A DNA stretch of 64,000 nucleotides from the NCBI RefSeq assembly GCF_900109345.1, contig NZ_FNZN01000003.1, positions 310,001 through 374,000 of the forward strand, written 5' to 3'. Origin of the DNA: Maribacter orientalis (GTDB lineage Bacteria; Bacteroidota; Bacteroidia; Flavobacteriales; Flavobacteriaceae). The first letter of the stretch is position 1. Each line of letters opens with the position of its first letter. The notes under the pieces are model-generated. The model was not told the DNA's origin, did no database searches, and saw only the letters and a list, made by a program, of their open reading frames with translations. Positions 1,134 to 25,298 of the stretch are shown one piece after another. The translations under genes and the position numbers were made by a program.

Positions 1134-1147
1134 ATGACAACGGTCAT
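1134..1147. promoter_or_regulatory. Fnr-like box 1 (ATGAC-N4-GTCAT), divergent
   Basis: ATGACAACGGTCAT is a perfect five-base inverted repeat with a 4-nt spacer. Thirty-three bases downstream (centre to centre) lies TACCTTAC (1170-1177) for the rightward MDR gene, and the same distance leftward lies TAAATTTC (1104-1111, minus strand) for the GIN gene. The site is one of 14 of this form in the left part of the window. Confidence 0.65.
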
Positions 1148-1197
1148 TACACGTAATAACAAACGGTTATACCTTACCATCTTAAACAAATTATTTT

Positions 1198-2217
1198 ATG
1201 AATGCTGCATATCTTATAAAGTACGGAAATGCCGAGAAGGCTTTTGAAATAAGGGAAGCAGATAAACCCCGGCCCAATGCAAATCAGGTTTTGATAAAGG
1301 TTGAAGCCTTTGGGTTGAATTTTGCCGATGTTATGGCGCGATTGGGACTTTATAAAGCGGCTCCGCCATTGCCTGCAATTTTGGGTTATGATGTAGTAGG
1401 TGAAATAGAGGCGATAGGCACCAATGTAAATCATGTGAAATTAGGAGATAGAGTTATTGCATTGACGAAGTTCGGTGGCTATGCCGAATTTGCTTTGGCA
1501 GATAAGGAGGTAGTTTATAAAATACCGAATTCATTCTCTGCAGGTGTTGCCGTTGCTTTGGCAACTCAATACAGTACTGCCTATTTTTTAAGTCATCATA
1601 TGGCCAATTTACAAGAAAATGATACTGTTCTTATACATGCTGCAGCTGGGGGAGTGGGTACAGCTTTAGTTCAGATGGCATTACATAAAAAGTGTATCGT
1701 TTTCGGTACTTGCGGTTCTGAAGAAAAGGTAGCCTATCTAAATAAGAATGGCGTGCATTACCCAATAAACTACAGAAAAAATGATTTTGAAGAAGCTGTG
1801 CGAAAAGTTATTGGAAAAAAGGGCTTGGATGCGGTTTTTGATCCGGTTGGCGGAAAATCGGTTAAAAAAGACTACCGGTTGCTCGGGGCAGGAGGAAGAG
1901 TTTTTTCTTTTGGGGTTTCGAGTATGAACCAGGCCAAAAACATATTTGGAAAAATACGGGTGCTTTGGCAGTTTGGGCTATATCACCCATTACAGTTTTT
2001 AAGTGGTTCAAAGGGAATGATAGGTATAAATATGTTGAAGGTTGCAGAAGAAAACCCAGAAAAAATAGCAAAGGTCATGCAAGAGGTTATTCGCTTGACG
2101 GAAGAGGGAATTCTTACCCCATATGTTGGTGGCGAATTTCAAGTAGAGCAACTGGCAGAAGCTCATGCTTTTTTGGAGTCTCGAAAATCGATGGGGAAAA
2201 TCGTTGTAAAATGGTGA
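1198..2217 (+). CDS. Zinc-independent MDR oxidoreductase (quinone oxidoreductase/VAT-1-like)
   Basis: A 339-residue medium-chain dehydrogenase/reductase. The N-terminal GroES-like domain contains LGYDVVGEIEAIGTNV and GDRVIALTKFGGYAEF. The Rossmann half carries the nucleotide-binding motif AAAGGVGTALVQMA typical of NADPH quinone oxidoreductases and VAT-1 homologues. The zinc-ligand cysteines of alcohol dehydrogenases are absent, so an NAD(P)H-dependent reductase of quinones or enones is likely; the substrate is unknown. The ATG at 1198 follows box 1 by 51 bp. The SDR gene begins four bases after its stop, so the two form an operon. Confidence 0.85.
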   Translation: MNAAYLIKYGNAEKAFEIREADKPRPNANQVLIKVEAFGLNFADVMARLGLYKAAPPLPAILGYDVVGEIEAIGTNVNHVKLGDRVIALTKFGGYAEFALADKEVVYKIPNSFSAGVAVALATQYSTAYFLSHHMANLQENDTVLIHAAAGGVGTALVQMALHKKCIVFGTCGSEEKVAYLNKNGVHYPINYRKNDFEEAVRKVIGKKGLDAVFDPVGGKSVKKDYRLLGAGGRVFSFGVSSMNQAKNIFGKIRVLWQFGLYHPLQFLSGSKGMIGINMLKVAEENPEKIAKVMQEVIRLTEEGILTPYVGGEFQVEQLAEAHAFLESRKSMGKIVVKW

Positions 2218-2221
2218 TGTT

Positions 2222-3148
2222 ATGAAGAATGATTACTTAAAGAATAAAGTGGCTGTGGTAAGCGGTTCGAGTATGGGTATTGGCAAAGCCATCGCTTGGG
2301 AGTTGGCGCAACTAGGAGCCAAAGTAATATTGAACGGTAGAGATTCGGAGAAGTTGGAAAGCGCAAAAAATGAATTTTTGGATAATGGCTTCAAGGTTGA
2401 TACCTTTATTGCAGACATTCGGTTACAGGAAGAGTGTAAGTTTTTGATTAGCGAAGTCATTAGTATTCACGGTCAATTGGATATTTTAGTGAATAATGCA
2501 GGTGTTAGTAGTAGGGGTTCTATTGAGAATTCGGCAGACAAAAATTTCACCATTCTCTCTGAGACCAATTTTACTGGCGCTGCCCATTTAAGCAAGTATG
2601 CCATACCCTACCTCAAAAAAACAAAAGGGCATGTGATATTTATCAATAGTATAGCAGGCTTTAGGGGAATGCCTTTTAATTCGGCCTACAGTGCCTCTAA
2701 AATGGCCCAGGCAGCACTTTCAGAAGCGCTTCGAATAGAACTTTGGGATTATGGTGTTCATGTTGGTATCGCCTTTGTGGGTTTTACCCAAAACGACCCG
2801 AATAAAAAAATCTTGGATGTAGATGGTTCACTGGTCTATTTGCCCAAACGTACGAACATGCAATTGGCCACTCAAGAATCTGTTGCCCAAAGTATCCGTA
2901 AAATGATTGAAAAAAGAACAAAGCGAATAACCTTAACAGGATTGGGAAATTTGGCTAATTTCACTATCCGTTATCTTCCTGCATTTAGCAGCTGGTTACT
3001 TTGGTTCAATCGAGAAAAAATAAAAAACCAGTATACGATGATCGGTGGGCTAAAAGTAGATGAAAGTGTACAGGTAGCTAGTGAATATCAAGAAATTTTG
3101 ACCGATTCCGAAGTCGAGATAGAGGCCGTTAAAGTCCGCCAGCGTTGA
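2222..3148 (+). CDS. Short-chain dehydrogenase/reductase
   Basis: A 308-residue classical SDR. The cofactor motif is VSGSSMGIGKAIA (TGxxxGxG with the first Thr replaced by Ser), the structural motif is NNAGVS, and the catalytic Tyr/Lys pair is in YSASK. About 50 residues beyond the usual 250 form a C-terminal extension with a hydrophobic patch (SSWLLWFN) that could associate with a membrane. The gene is translationally close to the MDR gene upstream and presumably shares its promoter. Its last 20 bases overlap the 3' end of the convergent universal stress protein gene. The substrate cannot be told from sequence. Confidence 0.85.
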   Translation: MKNDYLKNKVAVVSGSSMGIGKAIAWELAQLGAKVILNGRDSEKLESAKNEFLDNGFKVDTFIADIRLQEECKFLISEVISIHGQLDILVNNAGVSSRGSIENSADKNFTILSETNFTGAAHLSKYAIPYLKKTKGHVIFINSIAGFRGMPFNSAYSASKMAQAALSEALRIELWDYGVHVGIAFVGFTQNDPNKKILDVDGSLVYLPKRTNMQLATQESVAQSIRKMIEKRTKRITLTGLGNLANFTIRYLPAFSSWLLWFNREKIKNQYTMIGGLKVDESVQVASEYQEILTDSEVEIEAVKVRQR

Positions 3149-3974
3149 AACTAAGCAAAGGTACAGGGCTATTTTTTACCATTTGTTTGACCATGTCGGG
3201 TTGAAAGTATCTTTGATAAAAAGTACTGTCTTTACGCTCCAACATCACCAAAAGGTCAGCTTGGGCATTTTCAAGATACCATAGTAAGTCTTCAAAAACT
3301 TTTTCTGAAAAGACGAGATCAAATTCCATTTTGGCATAGTCCACTTTTTGTTTTAACGTTTCCTTAAACCATTCCATTTGTCCTTCACCATCATATTCAT
3401 TTCGTGTTGTAATATGTACCACTCTTATTTGTGCATCAAATTGATGTGCGATTTTTGCCAGCTTGTTAATTGCAAAAATATCTGCCTGCTCAAAATCTGT
3501 GGCATAGACCATTTTAGTAAGTTCTGTCTTTTCACTTCCTGTAGGTACGACCAATAAAGCACATGGAGATTTTTTTAGGAGTGTATTCGCTGTACTGCCC
3601 AATAATAATTCTTTTATAACACTTGTTCCTTTGGCACCGACACATATTAGATCTGCATTGAACTTGATAGCTTTTTCTATGATGCTGCTTGAAACAGAAG
3701 TGCCTTCATATACCACGAAATTCAAATCCATGTACATTTCTATAGTATCTAGATAATGGTCAACAAAGTTTTTCAATTTGGCTCGGTTTTCTACATATAG
3801 CTTTTTTTCCTTTTTCAAATAAGTTACCGTAACGGTACTTGCCAAAGTAATAGGCATATCAAAAACATGCATAACAATCAGTTTTGCACTGAATTTCTTT
3901 GCTAAAGAATATGCAAGTCGTAATGCGGAAACCGAATTTTCAGAGTAATCAGTGGCATATAAAATAGTTTTCAT
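3129..3974 (-). CDS. Universal stress protein, two UspA domains
   Basis: A 281-residue protein made of two Usp folds in tandem. The first starts at MKTILYATDYSENS and carries the ATP-binding type signature GAKGTSVIKELLLGSTANTLL; the second starts at KMVYATDFEQAD and has a degenerate signature, so probably only the N-terminal domain binds nucleotide. Cytoplasmic; Usp proteins act in survival of growth arrest and low energy. The gene is divergent from the hypothetical gene at 4130, with one palindrome box for each direction between them. Its stop region overlaps the SDR gene tail to tail by 20 bp. Confidence 0.9.
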   Translation of the reverse strand: MKTILYATDYSENSVSALRLAYSLAKKFSAKLIVMHVFDMPITLASTVTVTYLKKEKKLYVENRAKLKNFVDHYLDTIEMYMDLNFVVYEGTSVSSSIIEKAIKFNADLICVGAKGTSVIKELLLGSTANTLLKKSPCALLVVPTGSEKTELTKMVYATDFEQADIFAINKLAKIAHQFDAQIRVVHITTRNEYDGEGQMEWFKETLKQKVDYAKMEFDLVFSEKVFEDLLWYLENAQADLLVMLERKDSTFYQRYFQPDMVKQMVKNSPVPLLSFNAGGL

Positions 3975-4028: not shown

Positions 4029-4042
4029 ATGACTAACGTCAT
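4029..4042 (-). promoter_or_regulatory. Fnr-like box 2, for the Usp gene
   Basis: ATGACTAACGTCAT is a perfect ATGAC-N4-GTCAT palindrome. On the minus strand its centre is 33 bp upstream of the centre of TAGATTTA (3999-4006), a -7-like element, and the Usp start codon follows at 3974. The arrangement mirrors the box at 4061 for the opposite gene. Confidence 0.7.
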
Positions 4043-4060: not shown

Positions 4061-4074
4061 ATGATTTGAGTCAT
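4061..4074 (+). promoter_or_regulatory. Fnr-like box 3, for the gene at 4130
   Basis: ATGATTTGAGTCAT is a near-perfect copy of the palindrome. Its centre lies 33 bp upstream of the centre of TACATTTA (4097-4104), and the ATG is at 4130. Confidence 0.65.
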
Positions 4075-4129: not shown

Positions 4130-4579
4130 ATGAGTAATTTAAAATACAGCAAAGACATTGAATTTTTAAAAGATGGCCCATGGGACGAGCTCTATGTGTT
4201 GACAAAATATTGGATATCTGACCTTGAGTTTTATCGTGATGATTTATTATTTCTACACCATCTTATCGATAAATATTTTATTTGGATCACAAAGCAGGAA
4301 AATCTGGATCTGGTGAAAGAGCTTAAATTGGGTTTACAAGAAATGACCGCCAGCGTTAATGACTTACTGGAAAAAGTTAGCAGGCATCATGTTCGATTAG
4401 GGTTTATGGTAGAAGACTCGAATAAAAAGGATGCAGGAATTATAATATCAGAGCACCAACATTTGGAAGAGGAGATGAAGCGGTTCGTAAAATCTTTTCG
4501 AAAAAATAGAAAAGAGACTTTCAAGATAAGCGAATATATTTTAGACAGCGAAGAACTGTCAAGTATCATTAAAACATAA
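4130..4579 (+). CDS. Hypothetical helical protein of the stress cluster
   Basis: About 149 residues, starting at the ATG of MSNLKYSK; an in-frame TTG nine bases upstream is less likely. It is soluble and predicted largely alpha-helical (long amphipathic stretches, for example KELKLGLQEMTASVNDLLEKVSRHH), without signal peptide or membrane segment. I do not recognise the family. Placement directly behind a box and divergent from a Usp gene suggests a stress-induced cytoplasmic protein; that is inference only. It resembles in style, not in detectable sequence, the short helical protein at 11006-11398. Confidence 0.65.
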   Translation: MSNLKYSKDIEFLKDGPWDELYVLTKYWISDLEFYRDDLLFLHHLIDKYFIWITKQENLDLVKELKLGLQEMTASVNDLLEKVSRHHVRLGFMVEDSNKKDAGIIISEHQHLEEEMKRFVKSFRKNRKETFKISEYILDSEELSSIIKT

Positions 4580-4589
4580 TTCCTATTCT

Positions 4590-5608: not shown

Positions 5609-5622
5609 CTGATTTTTATCAT
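5609..5622 (+). promoter_or_regulatory. Fnr-like box 4, for the lipoprotein at 5692
   Basis: CTGATTTTTATCAT keeps the TGA...TCA core with an AT-rich spacer. Exactly 33 bp downstream, centre to centre, is TAGCTTTA (5645-5652), the same -7 octamer found behind box 9. The start codon follows at 5692. Confidence 0.55.
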
Positions 5623-5691: not shown

Positions 5692-6387
5692 ATGAAAAAG
5701 GGATTGATTAGAATTCTTGAAACAGTTATTGTGGTTTTGCTCTTGGCTTCATGTCAACCGGCAGTGGTTTTTGGGGAGCCACAACCTGTAGATGTAAAAC
5801 CGTTGTCAAGAATCCCCAATAATTTCATAGGTATTTACTGGTGTAAGGTAGACAGTGCATCTTTGTATGTTGATGATGGGGCCATTGTAAGGCGTAAAGA
5901 GTTCTTGATTAAAACAACCAAGGAAGAAATAGCGGCAGATCCCGAACTTGAACTGGTAAACGGGCAGCTGTATGTTAAGGATTGGGAGGGGTATTTTCCC
6001 CTTACTGAAAAAGGGGATACCTTAATTTCCCAAATTATCATACGAGATACTATTTTTGCAATTAATGATACACAGATTCTAAAGCCCTTTAAAGGACATC
6101 TTGTTTTAAATCTAAAATTGAGTGAAGATGCTTGGGAAGTCTTAGTGGTTTCTCAAAGAAGGGGTGAATTGCTGTCTATTGCTCGGGCAGATATACCTGA
6201 TAACTTAGCGCAATTAGACTCTATTACCACAGTGACTGTGCTTAAAGGAACTGATAGTATTCGTACTCAAATTTACTTGAAACCTACGGCCAAAGAGTTT
6301 GAACGAATTTATGATGAAGGATTACTTTTTGATGGCTCATGTACAGAATACGAAAGAATTTTTCCTTTAAAAGAAGTTATTTATTAA
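5692..6387 (+). CDS. Lipoprotein of unknown function
   Basis: A 231-residue protein with a type II signal peptide; the lipobox is LLAS-C at residues 17-21, so the mature protein is anchored through Cys21. The rest is hydrophilic with repeated pairs of strands (DSASLYVDDGAIVRRKEFLI, ISQIIIRDTIFAINDTQIL) and no motif I can name. It stands alone behind box 4. An inverted repeat at 6444-6470 may end transcription. Confidence 0.7.
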   Translation: MKKGLIRILETVIVVLLLASCQPAVVFGEPQPVDVKPLSRIPNNFIGIYWCKVDSASLYVDDGAIVRRKEFLIKTTKEEIAADPELELVNGQLYVKDWEGYFPLTEKGDTLISQIIIRDTIFAINDTQILKPFKGHLVLNLKLSEDAWEVLVVSQRRGELLSIARADIPDNLAQLDSITTVTVLKGTDSIRTQIYLKPTAKEFERIYDEGLLFDGSCTEYERIFPLKEVIY

Positions 6388-6489: not shown

Positions 6490-7845
6490 TTAGTTTTCGG
6501 GTAGTTGTATGGTGAAAGTACTACCTTGGCTCAAGGCACTGACGTATTCGATGCTTCCATTTAACAGTTCTACATACCTTTTTACAATACTCAGACCCAA
6601 GCCCGTGCCTTGAAAGTCTTTGACATTCTCAGCTCTGAAAAAACGTTTGAATAGATTTTTTTGATCCTGCTCAGGAATACCGATACCCTTGTCCTTTACA
6701 ATAACAGTCAATTCACCGTTTCTATTCATAGTATTTAGCATTACATCTGTTTCAGAGTATTTTATGGCGTTAGTCAAAAGATTGACCAAAATATTATGTA
6801 GTATTTTTTGATTTTGTACTACCAAATTGTTTCCTTCGTGCGAATAATGAATATGTTGCTCTGGTTTAAGAATGCCTTCCATTTCTTCGGTAAGTACCTT
6901 CATGAATTCCATGATGTCAAAAGTCTCTTTTTTTACCCTTACAACGCCCCGTTCTAGTTTTTCCAGGGACAGAAAATCATCAAGAATTGAAGTGAAATTT
7001 TTTATCGCAGATTTGATACGTTGAATATGCCGGTCAATTTTATCGTATTCCCCTTTATTGTTAAACTTTTCCATAAGAATAACCGATGACAGGATTATGG
7101 TTACAGGTGTGCGTAGTTCATGTGATGCAATCGTAATGAAGGCACTTTTCATCTCGTTGATATCCTTTTCCGATTCGAGGGCCTCGCTCAGTTCTTTGGT
7201 GCGCTCTAAAACGATTCTCTCCAGTTCTTGATTGTATTTTTCGATTTTTGTGTTTTCCCTCTCTAGATCTTCATGCTGCTCTTGCAAGATTTCCATCTTT
7301 CGAGTTTCTGTAATATCTTGTATGGCAACACGACATACGGGACCATTTATATTTTGGTCGGTATCTATCGTACCATTCATGAGCGCGTTAAAGTATGTAT
7401 TGTCTTTACGCTTTATTTTAAATTCTAAAGTTGGTAGGGTACCTGTCTTGAAAGCCTGTCGTAAACTAAGGAAAAAAGTATTCGCTTCACCTTTCGATAA
7501 ATACGCAGAAAAGGGTTTTCCCTTTATATGTAAACGGTCTATGCCGAACAGGTGGCAGGCTGTAAGATTAATGTTGTTGATTACCCCCTTCTCGTTCAAT
7601 ATCAAATAGCCCACAGGCGCAAAGTCGAACAGGTCACAATATTCATCACGAGCTTTTTCTAGTTGCTGCTGGGCCTCTCTCAATTCTTGGTTCTGCATCT
7701 CAAGTTCTATCTGATGTACTTCAAGTTCGTGCATCAAAATCTTGGCCTTTTCCATGGTAAGGTCTAGGGTCGATAGGGGCAAATTTTTTATTTGGGCTTC
7801 CGCCTTTTTTCGTAAAGCGCTATTTGGTGGATTTTTCGCCTTCAT
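6490..7845 (-). CDS. PAS-domain sensor histidine kinase
   Basis: A 451-residue soluble histidine kinase without membrane segments. It has an N-terminal coiled coil (about 30-70), one PAS domain (about 70-185), a second coiled coil, then a HisKA domain with H-box SHELRTPVTIIL (phospho-acceptor His242) and an HATPase domain with N-box NLLTNAIKYSE, G1 DKGIGIPEQD and G2 GTGLGLSIVKRYV. Its start overlaps the end of the CheB-CheR-PAS gene by 26 bp, so translation of the two is coupled. No receiver domain is fused or adjacent; stand-alone receivers occur at 20541 and 22346. Confidence 0.92.
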   Translation of the reverse strand: MKAKNPPNSALRKKAEAQIKNLPLSTLDLTMEKAKILMHELEVHQIELEMQNQELREAQQQLEKARDEYCDLFDFAPVGYLILNEKGVINNINLTACHLFGIDRLHIKGKPFSAYLSKGEANTFFLSLRQAFKTGTLPTLEFKIKRKDNTYFNALMNGTIDTDQNINGPVCRVAIQDITETRKMEILQEQHEDLERENTKIEKYNQELERIVLERTKELSEALESEKDINEMKSAFITIASHELRTPVTIILSSVILMEKFNNKGEYDKIDRHIQRIKSAIKNFTSILDDFLSLEKLERGVVRVKKETFDIMEFMKVLTEEMEGILKPEQHIHYSHEGNNLVVQNQKILHNILVNLLTNAIKYSETDVMLNTMNRNGELTVIVKDKGIGIPEQDQKNLFKRFFRAENVKDFQGTGLGLSIVKRYVELLNGSIEYVSALSQGSTFTIQLPEN

Positions 7846-10816
7846 CTCTTTCTATTTTTAGTTTTGCCAACTCTTTTTTAGCTTCATGAAGCTCTGTGAT
7901 GTCTATTAAGGTACAGGCAATTCCTTCCAAAGAATTATTTGCATAAACAGGTCTCACCATTAAATCGTACAGGTAGGTTGCATTACCAATAGTTAGGTCG
8001 ATTCTCTCTCGTATGGCTTTTCCTTTTTTTAAGACCTCTTTCTTTATTTTTTCTAATCTTGCCGTATCCTTTTCCGAATAAAAATCTCCATCTTTTTTTC
8101 CGACCATTTTTGCGAACTGAAAGTTGGGTTGAACGTTGTTGCCGATACTTGTATATTTTAGATCTTTGTTTTGTGTATAGACAATGGTCTTTGACATTTC
8201 AAGTAAATCCTCATAACTCTTCTTGGCATTCTTTAAATCATCGGCCAATTGTATTTCATGGGTTATATCGACAAAAGTGATTACCACCCCTTCTATCATA
8301 TTTTCAGAAGTGCGGTACGGTAAAATTTGCATTTTGTACCAGGTGCCGTCGCTGCTTTGAACTGATGTTGTAACTGGGACGAGCTTTTGAAGTACCTGTT
8401 TTATATCATTTTCGAGCCCGTCATAAACTAAGTTTGATGATAAATGTGTAATTGGCCTCCCTATGTCGGTCTGTATCAAATTTATGATTTTTGTTAAAGG
8501 AGGCGTGAATCGTTTGATTCTGAGGTTGGCATCTAAGAAAATTGTACCTATCTCGGTACTTGCCAATAAGTTGTTCATATCATCATACGCCAAGGCCAGT
8601 TCATCAATTTTTGAGGTGAGCTCAGTATTTATGGTTACGATTTCTTCGTTAACGCTTTGTAGTTCTTCTTTTGAGGTTTCGAGTTCTTCGTTTGTACTTT
8701 GTAGTTCCTCATTGCTCGACTGTAGTTCTTCATTGCTCGATTTCAACTCCTCGTTCGAAACTTCAAGTTCTTCAATGGTAGAGCGAAGGTATTCTTTAGT
8801 CGCTGTGAGTTCCTGCTCCAACGCATGAATTTCGGAAACTTCTTGGGCCTTTGCCGGTTTAACATCTACAGGGGCAATCTCCTCTTGAACTAGTTCTTCA
8901 AAGGTTATCATATAAAAACCTTCATAGGTATTTAGAGGTTCTAATGGCGTTATTCGAAGTAATATGGTCTGAAAATTGCCGTTGGTCTTTACATTAACCC
9001 CTTTGCTGATTTCTGTTTTTTTGCTCTTTCTTACCTTAACGATAAGTGCACGTAGGTCGGTTTTTAGTCCTTCACGGGCCATATCTACAATGTGGAGTTT
9101 TGCCTCTCCAGGCGAGGGCTGAAGGTATTTACCTGTATTACCCGAAAAATAAACGGCATCACCTTCGTTGTTAATGATGGCACATGCCGGGGCATATCTG
9201 GCCAATAATAAACGCTCGGTTACCCCGGCCAGGTTTTCACGGGGTTTTAATTTTATGGGAAGTGAATTCTCGGAAACTATGCGGCTTTGCTCTCGAAATA
9301 ATTGACTAATATCAGGCACTTTGGTAGCAACCACATTTTTATGCCTGAATATTTTATTCTTTCGGTCAATGGCTTCAAAAATGCTTGCAAATTCCCCTAA
9401 AGATTCAGAGCTGCCCAAGAACAAAATACCATCAGGTTTTAAGGCATAATGAAAAATAGTGAACACCCGTTTTTGTGCTTCTTGGTTTAAATAGATCAAA
9501 AGGTTTCTGCAGCTTACCAAATCTTGTTTTGAAAAAGGGGGGTCTTTAATAAGATTATGTTCGGCAAAAATGATTTGATCCCTTATTTCCTTTTTGATTC
9601 TAAACGTTGTTTTGTCTTTCAGAAAATAGCGGGAGAGCCTTTTGGTACTTATATCTGATGCAATGGTCTCTGGATAAATACCCTGTCGCGCAAGATTAAT
9701 AGTGTCACCGTCAAGATCAGAAGCGAAAATCTGCACTTTCAAGTTTTTGCTACCCTTACGGATCTCCTCATCAAACAGTATGGCCAAAGAATAGGCTTCT
9801 TCACCGGTAGAACAGCCAGCTACCCAAATACGGATAGTTTCACCATTCTGTTTTTTATTCAAAATTTCTGGGATTATCACTTTTTGTAAGGCTTCATAGG
9901 CCTCGGTATCGCGAAAAAAACTGGTTACACCGATGAGCAGTTCTTTAAAGAGCTTTAGAACTTCTTCTCGATCCTTTTGAATGTACTTCAAATAGTTTTC
10001 GAGTTTGTCGATTTGGTTGAGTGCCATGCGTTTATCTATCCTCCTGATAACCGTACTACTCTTGTAATCTCCGAAATTACACCCTGTTTCATTGCGCAAT
10101 ACAATAAATATTTTTTCCAACAAGTTTTTGGTCGTATCGATTTTCGTCGATTTTTTCTCCAATCCGAATTTTCGGTTTTTTGCATATTTTATTAACATGT
10201 CGGGAATTTCCTTGACGGGAAGTATAAAATCATGAGATTCCGCGGCAATGGCACTTCTTGGCATACCGTCATATTTTGCAGTATCGGGGTTTTGCACAAT
10301 AGCGAGTCCGCCTTGACCCTTAACCTGCTTAAGACCCAAAGTGCCTTCGGTGCCTGTACCTGATAATATTATTCCGACCGCCCTGCCCATCTGATCTTCT
10401 GCCAGGGAGCGAAAAAAATTATCGATCGGTTTTCGAAAACCCCGGGCCTTCATTGGGTCCATTAAGTGTAGAACGCCATTAAAGATGGCCATATCTTTAT
10501 TGGGCGGTATGACATAGATATGGTTCGGTTGTACTTTTGTATGATCTACGACCTCAGATATTTCCATCTGGGTATGCTTTTTTATCAACTCCACCATGAG
10601 GCTTTTATGGGTAGGGTCTAGGTGTTGTACCAAAACAAAAGCCATTCCCGGATTTTCTGGCATGGCCTCAAAAAACTGGTTAAAGGTCTCTAGCCCACCT
10701 GCGGAAGCGCCCATACCAACGATAAGAAAATCGCTTTCGGTATTTTCATTTGAGCTCTTCCCCTCTTGAGCCCTTGATTTATCGGTTTTTTTTATCGAAG
10801 GTTTTTTATTGGCCAT
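7820..10816 (-). CDS. CheB-CheR-PAS hybrid signalling protein
   Basis: About 998 residues, starting at MANKKPSIKK; a TTG-initiated form five codons longer is possible. Order: CheB methylesterase (about 28-215) with Ser38 in GASAGG and His65 in QHLDP; CheR methyltransferase (about 230-490) with IRIWVAGCSTGEEAYSLAI and VSCRNLLIYLN; a PAS-like segment; a long coiled coil built of repeats such as SNEELQSSNEELQS; and two C-terminal PAS domains. The usual CheB catalytic aspartate position reads Glu157 in SGTGTEG. No chemoreceptor, CheA or CheW gene is near, so it is likely a sensory module for the overlapping kinase and not for chemotaxis. Box 5 lies upstream. Confidence 0.9.
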   Translation of the reverse strand: MANKKPSIKKTDKSRAQEGKSSNENTESDFLIVGMGASAGGLETFNQFFEAMPENPGMAFVLVQHLDPTHKSLMVELIKKHTQMEISEVVDHTKVQPNHIYVIPPNKDMAIFNGVLHLMDPMKARGFRKPIDNFFRSLAEDQMGRAVGIILSGTGTEGTLGLKQVKGQGGLAIVQNPDTAKYDGMPRSAIAAESHDFILPVKEIPDMLIKYAKNRKFGLEKKSTKIDTTKNLLEKIFIVLRNETGCNFGDYKSSTVIRRIDKRMALNQIDKLENYLKYIQKDREEVLKLFKELLIGVTSFFRDTEAYEALQKVIIPEILNKKQNGETIRIWVAGCSTGEEAYSLAILFDEEIRKGSKNLKVQIFASDLDGDTINLARQGIYPETIASDISTKRLSRYFLKDKTTFRIKKEIRDQIIFAEHNLIKDPPFSKQDLVSCRNLLIYLNQEAQKRVFTIFHYALKPDGILFLGSSESLGEFASIFEAIDRKNKIFRHKNVVATKVPDISQLFREQSRIVSENSLPIKLKPRENLAGVTERLLLARYAPACAIINNEGDAVYFSGNTGKYLQPSPGEAKLHIVDMAREGLKTDLRALIVKVRKSKKTEISKGVNVKTNGNFQTILLRITPLEPLNTYEGFYMITFEELVQEEIAPVDVKPAKAQEVSEIHALEQELTATKEYLRSTIEELEVSNEELKSSNEELQSSNEELQSTNEELETSKEELQSVNEEIVTINTELTSKIDELALAYDDMNNLLASTEIGTIFLDANLRIKRFTPPLTKIINLIQTDIGRPITHLSSNLVYDGLENDIKQVLQKLVPVTTSVQSSDGTWYKMQILPYRTSENMIEGVVITFVDITHEIQLADDLKNAKKSYEDLLEMSKTIVYTQNKDLKYTSIGNNVQPNFQFAKMVGKKDGDFYSEKDTARLEKIKKEVLKKGKAIRERIDLTIGNATYLYDLMVRPVYANNSLEGIACTLIDITELHEAKKELAKLKIERDEGEKSTK

Positions 10817-18092: not shown

Positions 18093-18143
18093 GAGCAGTT
18101 AGTTGTATAGGTTCTATTGTTAAAATTGAAACGTATAAAAACA

Positions 18144-18466: not shown

Positions 18467-18968
18467 TATATGGCCGCTAAGGCATTGCTGCTTAGAAGCC
18501 TTAATTTTTAGTTATAATTTTAAAGAAGAAACAGGAAGCCGAAACTTCCTATTTTCCATAAAGAATTAAATTTGTTGTTACCTTTTATCAATCTTTTAAA
18601 CCAACTTATTGCTAAGATTATTTAACATATTGATTTGGGTAGCGACAGCATTTCCTTCTTTACTATGACTTGTATCCTCTTGCGATGATGCAAATCAATT
18701 CTTTTTTATTTTATAAGAAACCAAGTCACCGCAGTAACCTGGTTTCTAAGAAGATGATATTTCACCAGTTTGCGCTTACACTGACTCTTATTTGTGAGTA
18801 TTGCTAAACCCAAATAGAATTCAAACGGGCAAAATGTTTACGTGTTATCTTCTTCTTTTTAAATTGAATCCCGGTTCCCCCGAACAAGATTCAAATGGCT
18901 ATTAATTTCAAAGAACATTATTATTTTTGATTATGATGCTAAATTAAGGCAAGCTTGACATCTTCAAA

Positions 18969-18982
18969 ATGACCTAGGTCAG
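18969..18982 (-). promoter_or_regulatory. Fnr-like box 10, driving the hairpin region
   Basis: ATGACCTAGGTCAG overlaps the stop codon of the HtrA-like gene. On the minus strand TAATTTAG (18939-18946) is centred 33 bp downstream, which predicts a transcript running left from about 18935. No matching -7 element exists on the other side. Confidence 0.55.
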
Positions 18983-20025
18983 TTTGAAGAAAATTTTTCG
19001 GTTTTAGGAATTTTTAATGATAAATTCATGATTTTTCCCTTTCTTAAAATAGTGGTTTTTAAGGTGTCACCGAATTGAAGGTTATGTATAATTGACCAAG
19101 CCATGGTAAGATTTTTTTCATTCGTTAATGGTATATCGTTAAAAGTCAATAAAATATCGCCACCAACATCTAATTGTCCCCCCTCAATATTTAGTTGATA
19201 GAATGACCCCCTTAAGCCTAAGTTGTCTCCTAAGGATTTTGGGGCAACTTTTTGAACCATTACCCCGGCACTTTGTGGTAAGTTCAATATTTCTGCTAAT
19301 GGTCCAGTAATAAAATAGGCCTCAATACCGGTCCAAAGTGGTCTTTCATCGCAAAGCAGTTCTTTGGCAATATTAGAGGTAGCGGCAAATGATATACCTT
19401 GAAACCCTTCAGAATGGCTTAAAATAAAACTAGCAATGCCAATTACTTCTCCTTTCATATTAAATAATGGCCCGCCAGAACTACCCTCGTTAACGGCAGC
19501 ATCGGTTTGTATGAATTCTGTTTTTATGAATCCGCTCGATACCTGTTTTCTTGAATATTTTCCACTTATGTAACCAACAGAAAGTGAATGGCCTAAGCCA
19601 AATGGCGACCCGATGACAAAAACTTGATCACCAATTTTAACTTTATCAGAATCGGCTAAAGTTACAACTGCAAGGGGTGTGCTTTTCGACTCGGTCAGTC
19701 TAATTAATGCTACATCAGCTGTAGGGTAAGAGTATAGAACTTGTGCCGGAACTTCTTCTCCATCCGAAAAAACTACCTGAATCATAGTTGCGTTTTGAAC
19801 GATATGCGCGGCTGTCATGATATCACCGTCATTTGAAATAACGAAGCCCGACCCAAGGCCTTCAAGTGTTACCAAAGTTTTCATTTTTCCCTGGCCATAA
19901 ATTTCTGGTTGCCAAGTTTTAATAAGTACAACAGATGCATTGGCCTCTTCATATAATTCGCTTATACTTTGAGATGTGGCGAACGTTACATATAAAAATG
20001 AAATTAATAGTATAATCGTTTTCAT
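18979..20025 (-). CDS. HtrA/Deg-like trypsin-fold protease
   Basis: A 348-residue exported serine protease with signal peptide (ending FATSQS), a trypsin-like domain with the triad His74 (TAAHIV), Asp104 (TADVALIRL) and Ser183 (NEGSSGGPLF), and a C-terminal PDZ-like domain (about 240-340) starting SAGVMVQKVAPKSLGDNLGL. One PDZ domain and the length fit DegS/HtrA-type periplasmic proteases. It follows the small membrane-protein gene at 20242 by 28 bp, so the two form an operon under box 11. Its stop codon lies inside box 10. Confidence 0.88.
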   Translation of the reverse strand: MKTIILLISFLYVTFATSQSISELYEEANASVVLIKTWQPEIYGQGKMKTLVTLEGLGSGFVISNDGDIMTAAHIVQNATMIQVVFSDGEEVPAQVLYSYPTADVALIRLTESKSTPLAVVTLADSDKVKIGDQVFVIGSPFGLGHSLSVGYISGKYSRKQVSSGFIKTEFIQTDAAVNEGSSGGPLFNMKGEVIGIASFILSHSEGFQGISFAATSNIAKELLCDERPLWTGIEAYFITGPLAEILNLPQSAGVMVQKVAPKSLGDNLGLRGSFYQLNIEGGQLDVGGDILLTFNDIPLTNEKNLTMAWSIIHNLQFGDTLKTTILRKGKIMNLSLKIPKTEKFSSN

Positions 20026-20306: not shown

Positions 20307-20320
20307 ATGATGTACGTCAT
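20307..20320 (-). promoter_or_regulatory. Fnr-like box 11, for the small protein/HtrA operon
   Basis: ATGATGTACGTCAT is a near-perfect palindrome. TACTTTGT (20277-20284, minus strand) is centred 33 bp downstream, before the start at 20242. Confidence 0.65.
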
Positions 20321-20540: not shown

Positions 20541-20918
20541 ATGATAAAGATTCTTATTATAGAAGATGATAACGCTATTCGAGAAAATACTTCTGAACTT
20601 TTGGAACTTGAAGGGTATTCTACTTTAACGGCTTCAAATGGAAAAATAGGTTTAGAAAAAATTAAACGTCATCTGCCAGATTTAATACTTTGCGATCTTC
20701 GAATGCCCGAAATGGATGGTTTTACTGTACTTAAGAACCTTGGCCAATGTACTGATATGAAAAGAATACCATTAATATTCTTTAGTGCCAAATCTGAAAA
20801 AATAGATATAAAGATAGGCATGGATGCCGGTGCAGAAGCTTATCTCGTGAAGCCTTTTGAATTTGAAGAGCTTTTGGCATCCATCGAAAAATGCTTAAAT
20901 AATAAAAAAGAAGTTTAA
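20541..20918 (+). CDS. Single-domain response regulator
   Basis: A 125-residue CheY-like receiver with the acidic pair DD (residues 9-10), phospho-acceptor Asp52 in LCDLRMPEMDG, Ser in FFSAKSE and the conserved Lys in LVKPFEFEE. There is no output domain, so it works through protein contact or a phosphorelay. A stand-alone receiver fits the orphan PAS kinase at 6490-7845, which lacks a cognate; this is inference. Confidence 0.9.
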   Translation: MIKILIIEDDNAIRENTSELLELEGYSTLTASNGKIGLEKIKRHLPDLILCDLRMPEMDGFTVLKNLGQCTDMKRIPLIFFSAKSEKIDIKIGMDAGAEAYLVKPFEFEELLASIEKCLNNKKEV

Positions 20919-20991: not shown

Positions 20992-21005
20992 CTGATTCAA
21001 ATCAT
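20992..21005 (+). promoter_or_regulatory. Fnr-like box 12, for the baeRF gene
   Basis: CTGATTCAAATCAT with TACTTTGG (21028-21035) centred 33 bp downstream. The leader to the start at 21047-21053 is very short, under 15 nt. Confidence 0.5.
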
Positions 21006-21046: not shown

Positions 21047-22225
21047 TTGAACATGTATACTGCTGAAAAACATCCGTTACCAAAAGCAACTTTTGAAACA
21101 TTAATAGAGAAGAACGCCCTTTATTGTGTGTCCATATACCTTTCAATGGATAAAAAAGGGATGCAACAAAACCTTCATTTGGCTCAAGCCTTGTTGAAAA
21201 ACTGTTTAGAAGAGGTACGCGTAGTATTGTTGCAACATCAACTACAGGAAAATGAAGTAGAAGATTACCTTGACCCTATAGCTCAATTATTAAAAAAGGT
21301 AGATTTATGGCGAAACCCATCTGACGGTCTCGCTATCTTTTTAGATTTCGAAGCGGGGCTACAATACTATCATATACCAATACCTTTTGAGACACAAACA
21401 TATGTGGCAAGTCATTTTTACCTGAAGCCCTTGTTACCGATTTACCATAATGATGGCCTATACTACCTTTTGGAGCTAAGTCGTGATTATGTAAAGCTAT
21501 ATAAAGCATCAAGATATCATTTTGAGGATCTATACGTCGAAGATTTTGCGCCTAAACGCTTAGAAGAGGCCGTTGGGTTTGATTATAAACCAAAAATGTT
21601 ACAGTTTAGAAGTGGACAGGATATAGGTGGAGCAGGTCTATTTCATGGACACGGAGAGGGTAAGGATGATAATAAAAAAGAATTGGTCAAATTTTTTAGG
21701 GAGATTGATAAAGGAGTGAAAAAGACCATTGAAAATCAAAATGCTCCTTTATTATTGGCTTGTACCGATTACCTGTATAGTATTTATAAACAAACAAGTT
21801 CCTATAAAAACGTTTATGATAAGCATTTGGGTGGTGATCCAGAATTTAAAGTAAAGACTTCATTGCATCAAGATTCTTGGGATTTAATAGAACCCCATTT
21901 TAAAAAACTTAAGTCTGATATGATACGTAAGTTTAAAGAATTATATCATACCCAAAAAACCTCGTATGAAACAGGCAATATACTAAGTGCTGCCTTAAAT
22001 GGAACTGTAGATACCCTTTTCATTGAAAACGAGAAAGATATTTTTGGTACGTTTAATTTAAAAACCAATAAGGTAATCATAGATAAATCAAAAGATATCA
22101 GTAATGCTTCATTAACGAATTTGGCTGCTTTAGAAACCTTTAGACAAGGTGGTAAGGTGTTTTTTTTACCTGCTGAAGATATGCCTGTGAAAAATAGTAA
22201 CCTAAATGCAATTTTTAGGTATTGA
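21047..22225 (+). CDS. baeRF-family (bacterial eRF1-like) protein
   Basis: About 390 residues; the start may be the TTG at 21047 or the ATG at 21053. It matches the layout of the bacterial archaeo-eukaryotic release factor-like families: an N-terminal domain (FETLIEKNALYCVSIYLSM), the block GLYYLLELSRDYVKLYKASR, a central Gly/His loop near GAGLFHGHGEGKDD where eRF1 has GGQ-like residues, and a C-terminal domain with GTVDTLFIENE and ALETFRQGGKVFFLP. These proteins are proposed to act on stalled or hibernating ribosomes. The domain call is by recalled pattern; the function is not proven. Confidence 0.65.
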   Translation: MNMYTAEKHPLPKATFETLIEKNALYCVSIYLSMDKKGMQQNLHLAQALLKNCLEEVRVVLLQHQLQENEVEDYLDPIAQLLKKVDLWRNPSDGLAIFLDFEAGLQYYHIPIPFETQTYVASHFYLKPLLPIYHNDGLYYLLELSRDYVKLYKASRYHFEDLYVEDFAPKRLEEAVGFDYKPKMLQFRSGQDIGGAGLFHGHGEGKDDNKKELVKFFREIDKGVKKTIENQNAPLLLACTDYLYSIYKQTSSYKNVYDKHLGGDPEFKVKTSLHQDSWDLIEPHFKKLKSDMIRKFKELYHTQKTSYETGNILSAALNGTVDTLFIENEKDIFGTFNLKTNKVIIDKSKDISNASLTNLAALETFRQGGKVFFLPAEDMPVKNSNLNAIFRY

Positions 22226-23159: not shown

Positions 23160-23173
23160 GTGACCTATATCAT
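23160..23173 (+). promoter_or_regulatory. Fnr-like box 13, for the methyltransferase gene
   Basis: GTGACCTATATCAT with GATTTTTA (23196-23203) centred 33 bp downstream; start codon at 23226. Confidence 0.5.
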
Positions 23174-23225: not shown

Positions 23226-23864
23226 ATGCCACACACGAAAAAATTTGACCAAAATGTTGAAGCTTATGAGCAATGGTATGAAGACTACCCGGAGGTATTT
23301 GAATCAGAGCTTTTAGCAATAAAAGAGCAGTTTCAGAAATTACCCGAAAATCTTCATGGTATCGAAGTGGGCTTGGGAACAGCCAGGTTTTCTGTGCCTT
23401 TAGGAATTAAGGAAGGGATAGAGCCTTCTAAAGAAATGGCGGCATTGGCCGTTAAAAGAGGAATTTCAGTAGTAGACGGGTATGCCGAACAGCTACCATT
23501 TGGTGACCTGAAATTTGATTTTGTACTTTTTGTGACCATATGTCACTTAGATAATGTAAAGTATGCCTTTGCCGAAGCATATAGAGTTCTTAAGCCAAAA
23601 GGAGCAATTTTAATAGGCTTTCTAGATAAGGATAGGAGTGTAGCCAAACAATATATAGAAAATCGGCATAGAAGTACATTTTTTACAAATGCTAATTTTT
23701 TCACGGTCAGCAGAATGCAGACCTTGCTTAAAGATGTTGGTTTCAAAAATTTGGAATATAATCAAACACTCTTTGGTGATTTAGATGAAATAAAAGAAGT
23801 ACAAATGCCTAAAGAGGGTTTTGGTGAAGGGTCTTTTGTTGTTGTAAAAGCTACCAAGAAATAG
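23226..23864 (+). CDS. Class I SAM-dependent methyltransferase
   Basis: A 212-residue UbiE-like methyltransferase. Motif I is IEVGLGTARFSVPLG, post-motif I is IEPSKEMAALA, and the downstream blocks DFVLFVTICHLDN and AYRVLKPKGAILIGFLD are in the usual order. The substrate, a small molecule or metalloid, cannot be decided. It stands alone behind box 13. Confidence 0.82.
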   Translation: MPHTKKFDQNVEAYEQWYEDYPEVFESELLAIKEQFQKLPENLHGIEVGLGTARFSVPLGIKEGIEPSKEMAALAVKRGISVVDGYAEQLPFGDLKFDFVLFVTICHLDNVKYAFAEAYRVLKPKGAILIGFLDKDRSVAKQYIENRHRSTFFTNANFFTVSRMQTLLKDVGFKNLEYNQTLFGDLDEIKEVQMPKEGFGEGSFVVVKATKK

Positions 23865-23926: not shown

Positions 23927-24568
23927 TTAAAGACCAAGTGTCTTTTTTGAATTGGTTTTCTCTAGTATTTGTATGGCTTCGTGATCAGAAACTTGTTCGA
24001 ATTCTTCATAGAATTGGCCAACCGCCTGGAAATTATCAGGTATAAGTATACAGATGACTTCATCTACATTTTCGGTATTTGATATTTTATGGATTGCAGA
24101 AACTGGAGCAACAGGTATAGCTACTATAATTTTAGATGGTTTTTGTTTGTATACTAGTTCTACAGTCGCTAACAATGTATTGCCCGTTGCGACACCATCA
24201 TCGACTATAATTACCGTCTTGTTCTTTAAATTTGACGGAGATTGATGCTTATAATATTGATTGTACCGATCCCTTAGCGTTTTACGTATGTGGGCGGTCT
24301 CGGCGTCAATATAGCTTTTGTCAATGCCCACGGCATTGGTTAAGATGATGTTTTCTAAACTAACGGCACCAATAGCATATTCTTTATTGATTGGATGTCC
24401 TATTTTTTTAGTTAGAACCACATCTAATGGAGCATTTAGTTCTTTTGCTACTAACGCTCCTATAGGCAAACCACCTCTAGGTATAGCCAATACGATTACG
24501 TTTTCATCTTTGTACTTCACTAACTTTTTAGCTAGTTGTGTTCCTGCATCAAATCTGTTTTCAAACAT
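23927..24568 (-). CDS. Phosphoribosyltransferase-family protein
   Basis: A 213-residue type I PRTase fold with the PRPP-binding loop VIIVDDGVATGNTLLA and N-terminal VLAIPRGGLPIGALVAKEL. It belongs to the broad ComF/Rv0571c-like class often found next to or fused with a dienelactone-hydrolase domain. The gene upstream, seven bases away, encodes precisely that hydrolase. The nucleobase substrate is unknown. Confidence 0.85.
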   Translation of the reverse strand: MFENRFDAGTQLAKKLVKYKDENVIVLAIPRGGLPIGALVAKELNAPLDVVLTKKIGHPINKEYAIGAVSLENIILTNAVGIDKSYIDAETAHIRKTLRDRYNQYYKHQSPSNLKNKTVIIVDDGVATGNTLLATVELVYKQKPSKIIVAIPVAPVSAIHKISNTENVDEVICILIPDNFQAVGQFYEEFEQVSDHEAIQILEKTNSKKTLGL

Positions 24569-24574
24569 GGGTTT

Positions 24575-25228
24575 TTATTTTTTGTTCAATATATGTTTAG
24601 TGAACCATGATGCCGATATTCGTGAAACTTCCTCCAATTTTCCCGGCTCCTCAAACAAATGCGTTGCATTTGGTATAATTTCTAATTTCCGCTCGCATTT
24701 TAGTTCTTGATAGGCTTTTTCATTCAGTTCAATAACTACATCATCCAAACCTCCAACGATTAATAGTGTGGGAGCGGTAACCTTATGGAGGTCTTTTAGC
24801 GCGAGATCGGGTCGTCCACCTCGTGAAATAACAGTTTTTATATCGTCACCATAGAAAGCCGCGGCCTTCAAGGCTGATGCGGCCCCAGTACTGGCCCCAA
24901 AATAACCGATGGGCAAGTTTTTAGTGTCTTGTAGTTGTTGTGCCCATTGCGTTACATCTATAAGGCGAAGTGTGAGTAAATCGATATTGAATCGATTTTC
25001 GTAGATTTTGTCTTCATCTACTGTTAATAGATCAAAGAGTAAAGTGGCCAAGTGATTTTTTTGTAAAATCTCGGCCACATAATTATTTCGAGGACTTAGG
25101 CGGCTGCTACCACTTCCATGTGAAAAAATGACTAAGCCTATGGGGTTTTGGGGTACGGCCAGATTTCCTTTAAGTATTACCCCGTCTATCTGTATACTTA
25201 CGGTTCTATGGTTAAACTCGTTTTTCAT
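24575..25228 (-). CDS. Dienelactone-hydrolase-like alpha/beta hydrolase
   Basis: A 217-residue alpha/beta hydrolase with oxyanion region FSHGSGSSRLSPRN, nucleophile Ser in GYFGASTGAA, Asp in VGGLDDVVIELN and the final His in IIPNATHLFEEPG. It heads a two-gene operon with the phosphoribosyltransferase and lies behind box 14. In other bacteria the two domains are known as one polypeptide, which supports a joint role; the reaction is not known. Confidence 0.85.
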   Translation of the reverse strand: MKNEFNHRTVSIQIDGVILKGNLAVPQNPIGLVIFSHGSGSSRLSPRNNYVAEILQKNHLATLLFDLLTVDEDKIYENRFNIDLLTLRLIDVTQWAQQLQDTKNLPIGYFGASTGAASALKAAAFYGDDIKTVISRGGRPDLALKDLHKVTAPTLLIVGGLDDVVIELNEKAYQELKCERKLEIIPNATHLFEEPGKLEEVSRISASWFTKHILNKK

Positions 25229-25284
25229 TTTTTGATTTTCTGTTTACCAAAAATTGAAAGTAAGGGAAGGTTGTGGCGTATAAA

Positions 25285-25298
25285 ATGATACAGGTCAT
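25285..25298 (-). promoter_or_regulatory. Fnr-like box 14, for the hydrolase/PRTase operon
   Basis: ATGATACAGGTCAT is a near-perfect palindrome; TACTTTCA (25255-25262, minus strand) is centred 33 bp downstream, before the start at 25228. It is the rightmost site seen in the window. Confidence 0.65.

Follow-up and report, generated by a model that had tools for sequence, protein, structure and literature searches.

The palindrome [A/C]TGAY-N4-RTCAT(TT), which recurs in the window (the whole 64-kb stretch of DNA analysed here), is putatively recognized by a Bacteroidota branch of the Crp/Fnr proteins. The best explanation of the observations as a whole, to which we assign a probability of roughly three in four, is that this box belongs to class II promoters of a low-oxygen programme driven by histidine kinases through proteins in which a receiver is fused to a Crp domain (REC-Crp), with an FNR-like protein as a further probable reader of the box. 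Falling oxygen would act on the kinase, the signal would pass to the receiver and on to the dimeric Crp domain, and the target genes, namely Usp, protease, glycolysis/fermentation and repair genes together with tandem structured RNAs, would be switched on.

The window contains 23 copies of the core TGAYN4RTCA, compared to 3.9 expected, and none of 100 shuffles reaches 23. The 14 boxes listed in the earlier note are all real and are all among these 23; as claimed there, all 14 lie outside open reading frames (ORFs), according to our own longest-ORF calls, which were used rather than the annotation. The list is, however, incomplete for 1–25.3 kb, where three further core copies are found at 2634 (within an SDR gene), 9303 (within the CheBR gene) and 18686 (no protein gene; a chance box in the 5' hairpin of the RNA unit U2 described below). 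The statement that no box lies between genes in 27.3–64 kb is correct for five of the six later core matches, which are within ORFs, but not for 28499, which falls between two ORFs, one ending at 27859 and the other with its end at 28533, and lacks a -7 element at +33. Given that the first 25.3 kb holds 17 core copies and the genome 358 (compared to 218 for the reversed pattern), this region has about 8 times the genome density. Thus, the local cluster is real, but a regulon confined to the window is ruled out by a genome-wide search: box-N23-TAnnTTT has 76 matches, mostly in islands, versus 2 for the reversed pattern (in the genome match counts of 76 and 84, divergent promoters sharing one box are counted twice), and the window holds only the tail of one such island. 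The 14 boxes are listed below with the genes that they would serve, the -7 element where it matches TAnnTTT at only four of the five key bases (4/5), and the relatives that keep the box upstream of the orthologue.

Box 1, 1134–1147, divergent: DUF2807 gene (minus strand, TAAATTTC at +33) and MDR/SDR operon (plus strand, TACCTTAC at +33); found upstream of DUF2807 and of ADH in 4/4 relatives with an orthologue, each.
Box 2, 4029–4042, minus strand: Usp gene 3129–3974; kept in 4/4 relatives.
Box 3, 4061–4074, plus strand: hypothetical gene 4130–4579; kept in 3/3 relatives.
Box 4, 5609–5622, plus strand: hypothetical gene 5692–6387; kept in only 1/4 relatives, absent in 3/4.
Box 5, 10920–10933, minus strand: CheB-CheR-PAS gene 7820–10816 and kinase gene 6490–7845; -7 element 4/5; kept in 3/3.
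Box 6, 13569–13582, divergent: FtsH gene (minus strand, TAGTTTTG; kept in 3/3 relatives) and hypothetical gene 13632–14036 (plus strand, TTATTTTG, 4/5; kept in 4/4).
Box 7, 15436–15449, minus strand: Usp gene 14587–15390; kept in 4/4 relatives.
Box 8, 15511–15524, plus strand: glyoxalase-fold gene 15600–15965; -7 element 4/5; 4/4 relatives have a box within 260 bp, G124 only the more distant one (Box 7).
Box 9, 16025–16038, plus strand: AI-2E family transporter gene 16262–17401; kept in only 1/4 relatives, absent in 3/4.
Box 10, 18969–18982, minus strand: TGACCTAGGTCATTTT, with TAATTTAG at +33; heads the non-coding RNA array.
Box 11, 20307–20320, minus strand: HtrA-like protease gene 18979–20025; -7 element 4/5; kept in 3/3 relatives.
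Box 12, 20992–21005, plus strand: baeRF gene 21047–22225 (start set to 21053 in the upstream conservation comparison); -7 element 4/5; kept in 3/3 relatives.
Box 13, 23160–23173, plus strand: methyltransferase gene 23226–23864; -7 element 4/5; kept in 2/3 relatives.
Box 14, 25285–25298, minus strand: hydrolase gene 24575–25228 and PRTase gene 23927–24568; -7 element 4/5; kept in 4/4 relatives.

The spacing between box and promoter is constant. A -7-like element, seen at this distance in nearly every case by the earlier note, is centred exactly 33 bp from the box in all 14 sites: at least four of the five bases of TAnnTTT are found at +33 in 14/14 and all five in 7/14, the other seven elements matching at 4/5 bases only; for the same sites, the other 98 offsets (12 to 110) yield means of 1.4 (at least 4/5) and 0.19 (5/5), with maxima of 6 and 2. 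When the islands examined are combined with the window, there are 64 TAnnTTT elements at +33 for 89 intergenic boxes (both directions counted), the mean at other distances being 0.93, but only 1 for 32 boxes inside ORFs, contrary to the equal frequency in coding DNA that the earlier note named as grounds for abandoning the idea. The start codon follows the -7 element within the proposed 15–60 bp at most sites (about 19–49 bp, with the start codons chosen by us); the four exceptions are the CheBR gene (~77 bp), the AI-2E family gene (~197 bp), the HtrA gene (~255 bp), and site 18969, which has no protein gene downstream and precedes non-coding RNAs, so that not all 14 boxes serve protein genes. 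In class II activated promoters, the box centre is located about 41.5 bp before the transcription start. Judged from the 33-bp spacing, the proposed class II (-41-like) placement is supported: the box would span roughly position -41.5, the T-run at its 3' side would fall on the -33 region, and TAnnTTTR would be the -7 element.

Among the 65 box sequences with TAnnTTT at +33, the base preceding TGAY is A in 57%, C in 40%, G in 3% and T in none, so that the classical FNR half-site TTGAT is absent from all 65 and the reading of the box as a canonical FNR site is ruled out (A/C 97%). Hence the Fnr-type geometry suggested earlier applies to the palindrome with its N4 spacer but not to the half-site, in which the first base is A or C and never, even weakly, T. 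This feature, together with the replacement of Ser212 by Ile in the recognition helix of the candidate regulators, points to a distinct lineage specificity. In the window, 12 of the 14 boxes have the RTCATT form.

Orthologous promoters mostly keep the box and the -7 element. By hand count, 47 of 54 orthologous upstream regions contain a box (G121, with no qualifying orthologue in the stretches examined, is left out, and one divergent box can serve more than one of the 15 genes compared, as is the case for several of them). The corresponding count for five genes lacking a box here is 0/15, a weak control because most of these are inner operon genes: four of the five (PRTase, SDR, kinase 6490–7845 and LytTR) closely follow another gene, their upstream DNA being partly coding. 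In the 18 aligned promoter pairs that form the profile (out of 36 of 52 site-genome pairs that passed the alignment score), identity is 100% at the TA, TT and R of the -7 element and at the T that follows the box, and about 30–65% at most flank positions.

The gene content fits oxygen limitation, in line with the low-oxygen regulon suggested earlier. Boxes with a -7 element are found directly before the genes for cbb3 oxidase, HemN and an alternate F1F0 ATPase, and head gene rows of class II RNR, glycogen phosphorylase and pyruvate dehydrogenase. No box immediately precedes the genes for acetate kinase, phosphotransacetylase and cytochrome bd, although these too are located in the island stretches. 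In the window portion itself, genes for Usp and proteases and genes of unknown function are abundant.

Three Maribacter proteins contain the recognition helix E-x-x-I-R, an FNR-like protein and two receiver-Crp fusions (types A and B); its Ile stands where FNR has Ser212 (FNR numbering). All three score above the Pfam cut-off for cNMP_binding and HTH_Crp and are thus Crp/Fnr transcription factors; both fusions combine REC (PF00072), cNMP_binding and HTH_Crp_2, and each is encoded directly behind a PAS kinase. The type A gene is located ~10.5 kb before the window, behind a multi-PAS kinase gene; a box (C11:294991) precedes this kinase-regulator pair, and in G123, G124 and G125, too, there are boxes 3.47–3.50 kb upstream of the fusion gene. 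D54 and K106 of the receiver and E320, I323 and R324 of the Crp part are invariant in 28 fusions; with the receiver domain, the phospho-acceptor Asp and the conserved Lys, the fusions have the features of response regulators. The predicted REC-Crp structure is only moderate (pLDDT 73, pTM 0.48; the best Foldseek matches are cAMP receptor proteins), so that no conclusion is drawn from the domain arrangement. The cAMP-binding pocket of CRP includes Glu and Arg-Ser; here the pocket differs, with GQLS in place of GELS (one fusion compared with M. tuberculosis CRP; consensus of 28), and control by cAMP is rejected. Of the three, the FNR-like protein, encoded next to the cbb3 oxidase genes, most resembles known FNR (A. 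fischeri FNR entries, best E 9.3e-24), and its gene has a box and TAGTTTTG upstream at C17:315119; a Crp/Fnr gene elsewhere and its own box were among the things to look for according to the earlier note. Fe-S oxygen sensors of the FNR type have four Cys ligands at set positions. The orthologues of the FNR-like protein share four invariant Cys (positions 7, 10, 56 and 109; 25/25); C29 of FNR has no counterpart, and C56 is extra.

Both fusions would be switched through phosphorylation by the co-encoded PAS histidine kinase. The type A kinase contains several PAS domains, the first of which lacks the haem His (by eye). The hallmarks of the FixL haem PAS are a proximal His and a distal Arg. The PAS of the type B kinase matches the haem-PAS of FixL and DosP and aligns with the proximal His; the type B kinase of this genome has Leu at the aligned distal Arg, and among 13 type B loci the PAS stretch matched the pattern in 6, 4 of which carry both His and GHGR. 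The likely regulator of the window island is a receiver-Crp hybrid under histidine kinase control rather than the classical Fnr, and the type A fusion would most likely drive the window sites. A stand-alone receiver protein encoded in the window (20541–20918, plus strand) is 50% identical to the receiver of type A. For Crp/Fnr homologues of Flavobacteriales in a bioreactor, a MalR-like, carbon-sensing role has been proposed (PMC8510549), which differs from the oxygen reading here.

The number of boxes follows the regulators, which supports recognition by the Crp/Fnr family. Among 120 Flavobacteriaceae genomes, the raw medians, in which kinship is ignored, are 1.5 boxes with neither regulator (n=22), 12 with FNR only (n=44), 16 with the fusion only (n=27) and 27 with both (n=27), where FNR stands for at least 39% identity and a second, ~30% family is left out; G048 (82% complete, 6% contaminated) has neither regulator, yet 31 boxes. 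Within Maribacter, TCATT-form boxes number 7–42 in 15 type A genomes and 0–7 in 21 others (G120, whose type A gene is broken into two frames, is counted as type A here and left out of another genus comparison), non-TCATT boxes being also somewhat commoner in type A genomes (medians 23 vs 18). The baeRF gene is present in 8/36 Maribacter, all with the type A fusion (one split). Related genomes are not independent, and the correlation could be phylogenetic, with an unrelated palindrome-binding family reading the box; this is very improbable, given that the difference is visible inside one genus and for two separate regulators and that the palindrome has the size typical of the Crp/Fnr family.

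Similarly, it is improbable that all boxes are read by the FNR-like protein only, with the fusions controlling other things: despite its closeness to FNR, its four invariant Cys and the promoter-linked box before its own gene, the fusion genomes without an FNR orthologue still reach their median of 16, the TCATT form follows the type A fusion within Maribacter, a box precedes the type A kinase-regulator genes, and boxes also lie ahead of the fusion gene of G123, G124 and G125. The abundance of Usp, protease and unknown genes in the window and the lack of a haem His in the first PAS of the multi-PAS type A kinase are compatible with a general stress or starvation regulon centred on Usp, FtsH, HtrA and Hsp20, whose kinase would sense redox, energy or another cue. 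This we consider unlikely, because the same box and -7 element precede the cbb3 oxidase, HemN, alternate ATPase and class II RNR genes, and the consulted part of one report describes a Usp-rich cluster, lxa of Burkholderia cenocepacia, that is itself a low-oxygen cluster (PMC6127331).

Under the kinase-driven REC-Crp explanation, the predicted targets include non-coding RNAs. Site 18969 stands at the head of four structured RNAs that are conserved; in the genome parts examined there are three arrays of this kind, including the present one:

ncRNA unit U1, 18712–18935, minus strand: fold z -4.1 (folded singly only); match of the model R1 to 18714–18916, E 0.006.
ncRNA unit U2, 18522–18716, minus strand: fold z -4.8; covariation; R1 match, E 2.9e-5.
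ncRNA unit U3, 18322–18524, minus strand: fold z -5.6; no R1 match of the window copy at E <= 1.
ncRNA unit U4, 18140–18324, minus strand: fold z -5.95; source of R1.

The arrays (14 from 8 genomes, three of them from this genome; the pairs L095/L164, L096/L169, L097/L167 and L113/L162 each come from one genome, G124, G125, G150 and G123, respectively) consist of 2–4 tandem RNAs, each about 190 nt in length; most of these RNAs have a long hairpin capped by a GNRA loop. Few pairs covary in U4 (4/53) and in U3, the unit structures being derived from the same alignments that were used for covariation, and in the two unit alignments compared with controls the pair-type counts are within those of shuffles (254/500 and 66/500 reach them). 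Among 40 REC-Crp loci, 8 have R1 matches at E <= 0.01, and all 8 are from Maribacter; of the 18 matches, 12 are on the strand of the array and 6 on the other. There are none in seven other type A Maribacter loci (L115, L116, L120–L124) or, in another R1 search, in the named Maribacter loci L099 and L100. Opposite-strand matches (e.g., plus strand 18053–18176 of the window, E 4e-6) arise because the terminator hairpin is self-complementary, so that weaker scores come partly from the hairpin alone. A fold scan of boxes at REC-Crp loci detects L101:12992 of Pseudozobellia thermophila (z -4.5; a U1-type unit by eye), the other boxes listed having z from -1.8 to +2.8. A further candidate array, C10:414005, was rejected as the site is followed by a BON-like reading frame that is interrupted by a stop (by eye). 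Rfam yields only below-threshold array matches, none at the gathering score, and its only match in the window is a tRNA.

Flavobacteriaceae are abundant in marine systems. Proteobacteria and mycobacteria have well-known low-oxygen regulons; for Flavobacteriaceae, topical literature searches listed no paper that deals with such a regulon or with an FNR-type box. It is slightly more probable than not that the low-oxygen programme of marine Bacteroidota combines a receiver-fused FNR-type activator, a hybrid not described in the literature found, with PAS kinases (FixL-like haem-PAS in type B), a lineage-specific box and a new family of terminator-ended tandem RNAs, one array of which lies beside the regulator gene. 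The outcome is a ready box, three candidate regulators and a genome-wide target list; since Maribacter is a genus with natural gains and losses, the rule is directly testable, and the RNA arrays represent a family that is conserved and structured, is missing from Rfam, and has an inducing condition that can be predicted.

FNR and ANR, which recognize TTGAT-N4-ATCAA, share with the present system the fold and domains, the recognition-helix residues Glu and Arg, the N4 palindrome, class II-like placement and respiratory targets; here, however, the half-site is A/C-TGAY, the helix has Ile for Ser, the candidate fourth ligand is elsewhere, and two paralogues carry a receiver. In FixL-FixJ-FixK, the FixJ step stands between FixL and the Crp/Fnr-type FixK; the type B locus likewise combines a FixL-like PAS kinase with a Crp/Fnr-type activator, but the receiver and the Crp domain are in one protein and there is no FixJ step. 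Two-component control of a Usp-rich low-oxygen regulon is reminiscent of mycobacterial DosS/DosT-DosR, to which the earlier note likened the regulon; the analogy with DosR is limited to gene content, as DosR has an output domain of the NarL/LuxR type and the fusions have HTH_Crp_2, so that they are not of the DosR class. Non-coding RNAs under FNR control are exemplified by FnrS-type sRNAs; here the RNAs behind the FNR-family box show no Rfam match at the gathering score and form tandem arrays of 2–4 RNAs of ~190 nt. The lxa locus of B. cenocepacia, which belongs to another phylum, comprises 50 genes whose expression rises when oxygen is low; six of its products are Usp, and others are a heat shock protein, a BON protein and a phosphofructokinase, and the consulted part of the source describes no receiver-Crp regulator or RNA array (PMC6127331). 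In Myxococcus xanthus, the two-component system NmpRSTU controls the cbb3 and HemN genes in a haem-dependent manner, through an NtrC-type regulator and a protoglobin sensor in contrast to the receiver-Crp fusions and PAS kinases found here (PMC11841059).

All 14 palindrome sites listed in the earlier note are present in the window, and so is the 33-bp centre-to-centre spacing to a -7 element that it claimed: 14/14 sites have at least four of the five bases of TAnnTTT at +33 (33 bp from the box centre to the -7 centre) and 7/14 have all five, against means of 1.4 and 0.19, respectively, at other offsets. In the islands (genome stretches dense in boxes) that were examined together with the window, 64 TAnnTTT elements lie at +33 of the 89 intergenic boxes (both directions counted), against 0.93 per other offset, and 1 lies at +33 of the 32 boxes within ORFs. 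The oriented logo of 65 box sequences is [A/C]TGAY-nnnn-RTCATTTT, and a T preceding TGAY is absent in all 65. According to PMC2483708, promoters of Bacteroides and Flavobacterium carry TAnnTTTG at -7 and TTTG at -33. In a promoter of this type, a box lying 33 bp ahead of the -7 centre would cover about -41.5, with the T-run over the -33 region.

The window spans positions 310001-374000 of contig C11. The core TGAYN4RTCA occurs 23 times in it (3.9 expected) and 358 times across the 26 contigs of the genome (4.16 Mb), compared with 218 for the reversed control pattern. With the -7 element included, box-N22-24-TANNTTT has 84 genome matches vs 8 reversed, and box-N23-TAnnTTT alone 76 vs 2. The 84 matches cluster in contigs C10 (413-438 kb), C11 (269-326 kb) and C17 (103-168 and 223-315 kb). 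With weaker -7 elements counted, the C11 island reaches 335.3 kb (66 kb in total), and the window sites are its downstream end.

The boxes are mostly conserved among relatives. For 15 window genes whose box lies within 260 bp, 54 orthologous upstream regions from four other Maribacter genomes were compared, and 47 of them also carry a box; its distance from the gene is mostly comparable, and its inner bases have changed. Upstream regions of five box-less window genes have none (0/15), a control that is weak because four of the five closely follow another gene. In 18 box-centred, ungapped promoter pairs (own genome vs the compared genomes G123 and G125), the T that follows the box and the TA, TT and R of the -7 element are 100% identical, the T's next to them agree at 83-89% and most of the flanks at about 30-65%; identity of the core TGA/TCA is fixed by the selection of pairs, the remaining positions being unselected.

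In the island stretches, curated models score over the cut-off for class II RNR, alternate F1F0 ATPase beta, the acetate kinase family, phosphate acetyltransferase, class I aldolase, debranching enzyme, the alpha-glucan phosphorylase family and, among respiratory names, cbb3 subunits I/II, CcoG and HemN; D-lactate dehydrogenase, RtcB, pyruvate dehydrogenase E1 alpha and cytochrome bd are under the cut-off yet clear relatives. The genes for cbb3, HemN and the ATPase each have a box with a -7 element immediately before them, and such a box also heads the gene rows of RNR, of glycogen phosphorylase and of pyruvate dehydrogenase; in one lactate dehydrogenase row, the -7 element matches at 4/5. No box immediately precedes acetate kinase, phosphotransacetylase or cytochrome bd in these stretches. 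The alternate (N-type) F1F0 ATPase operon (locus L057, C17:116956-123671, box at 116888) lies amid glycogen and glycolysis genes. Judged by eye from the starts of ORFs, the islands also hold rows of universal stress (Usp) genes, BON, Hsp20 and thioredoxin. At L054:8700-9000 (C10:413.7-414.0 kb), a box and a perfect -7 element are followed by a BON-like frame that is interrupted by a stop and is apparently a remnant. The window genes are two Usp, FtsH, HtrA-like, CheBR-PAS, kinase, receiver, baeRF, glyoxalase fold, MDR, SDR, methyltransferase, PRTase and hydrolase. For comparison, the lxa locus of Burkholderia cenocepacia (PMC6127331) is reported as a 50-gene cluster raised at low oxygen that includes six Usp, one heat shock protein, one BON protein and one phosphofructokinase.

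The genome has four genes with a Crp-type HTH:

C11:298478-299551, type A fusion (receiver, cNMP and Crp HTH), overlapping a 1045-aa multi-PAS kinase
C17:240616-241665, type B fusion (receiver, cNMP and Crp HTH), directly behind a 383-aa PAS kinase
C17:315182-315877, FNR-like gene near cbb3 oxidase genes
C17:301830, fourth Crp-type HTH gene

The regulator gene has its nearest named relatives in M. arcticus (92%), M. caenipelagi (87%) and M. stanieri (86%). In the recognition helix E-x-x-I-R, the E, I and R are invariant in 28 fusions and, by eye, in 25 FNR-like orthologues, all of which also retain Cys 7, 10, 56 and 109 (25/25). The PAS domain of the type B kinase resembles the haem PAS of FixL (8.2e-12) and DosP, with alignment of the proximal His, the haem ligand of those domains. 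Among the best 60 of 337 PDB sequence matches, the fusion aligns through its receiver or its Crp part, none spanning both. Other families of the class have receiver-Crp fusions too: among 198 genomes of the phylum, 34 show a match at 1e-40, counting the present genome, and the two of these that share no more than the phylum with it match over the receiver only. Two single receivers are encoded as well: one inside the regulon (20541-20918), 50% identical to the type A receiver, might compete for phosphate, and another (L051:9520-9969, C11:279520-279969), located in a Usp row beside a FixL-like PAS kinase of 503 aa and with a stop reported within a longer open frame, may be a shortened fusion.

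The number of boxes follows these regulators. Across 120 Flavobacteriaceae genomes, among which the present one has the highest count, the box pattern totals 1892 vs 140 reversed, and with kinship ignored, the median is 1.5 with neither regulator (22 genomes), 12 with FNR only (44), 16 with a fusion only (27) and 27 with both (27); G048, with 31 boxes, is the one strong exception. In 36 Maribacter genomes, the medians, again ignoring kinship and leaving out the split G120, are 39 with type A (14 genomes), 21.5 with type B only (16) and 7 with no full-length fusion (5). The RTCATT form distinguishes the two groups almost completely, with 7-42 such boxes per genome in the 15 type A Maribacter vs 0-7 in the 21 others; other forms differ less (medians 23 vs 18, P 0.001, kinship ignored). 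In the window, 12 of the 14 boxes read RTCATTT toward a -7 element, and its baeRF gene occurs in 8 of the 36 Maribacter genomes, each of which carries type A (split in one).

The box at 18969 is followed by no protein gene: the next 870 nt of the minus strand contain no frame longer than 44 codons from stop to stop. Over about 800 nt, three relatives match this stretch at 78-80% identity and a fourth at 92%, and the C10 island carries a paralogue with 73% identity. Its sequence suggests an array of structured RNA units, and a model built from the fourth unit (U4) finds similar arrays:

18140-18935, minus strand, four units of about 190-220 nt headed by box 18969
L055:4841-5649, C10 island, three units found by the U4 model
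L052:10261-10655 (C11:300.3-300.7 kb), beside the type A gene, two units found by the U4 model

Each window unit is predicted to form three hairpins: a 5' one, a long one and one resembling a terminator (fold z-scores -4.1, -4.8, -5.6 and -5.95); as folded, the apical loop of the long hairpin is A-GNRA-U in 7 of 10 own units. In the window, the model recovers U1 and U2 and misses U3; it also matches the opposite strand because of the terminator hairpin. With this model, a like array is detected beside the fusion gene in 5 of 7 named Maribacter loci and in G121, and among 15 type A loci of Maribacter taken with 1.5-kb flanks, 8 have an array. Covariation gives 21 both-side cells for the second unit of the two-unit array beside type A (7 sequences; 9.5 shuffled, 1-6 slid) and 8 for U2 (6 sequences; 3.2 shuffled, 1-5 slid), other measures being weaker. 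The box is present in each of the 14 array copies that were examined, from 8 genomes; it reads TGACCTAGGTCA in 9 of the 14, with TAnnTTAG at +33. No Rfam family matches the arrays at threshold. In Pseudozobellia thermophila (L101:12400-12990), a box precedes a U1-like structured stretch (z -4.5).

The box and its spacing are sound, and stronger than the earlier note claimed; the note's reading of them as a low-oxygen regulon of Fnr type is probably correct in kind. By analogy with FnrS, one guess is that the RNA arrays might control aerobic functions at low oxygen. Relative to the literature found by our topical searches, what is new here is the receiver-Crp hybrid regulators that would account for box number, the predicted RNA arrays placed under the same box as protein genes, and the box itself, which is lineage-specific and distinct from the classical FNR site.
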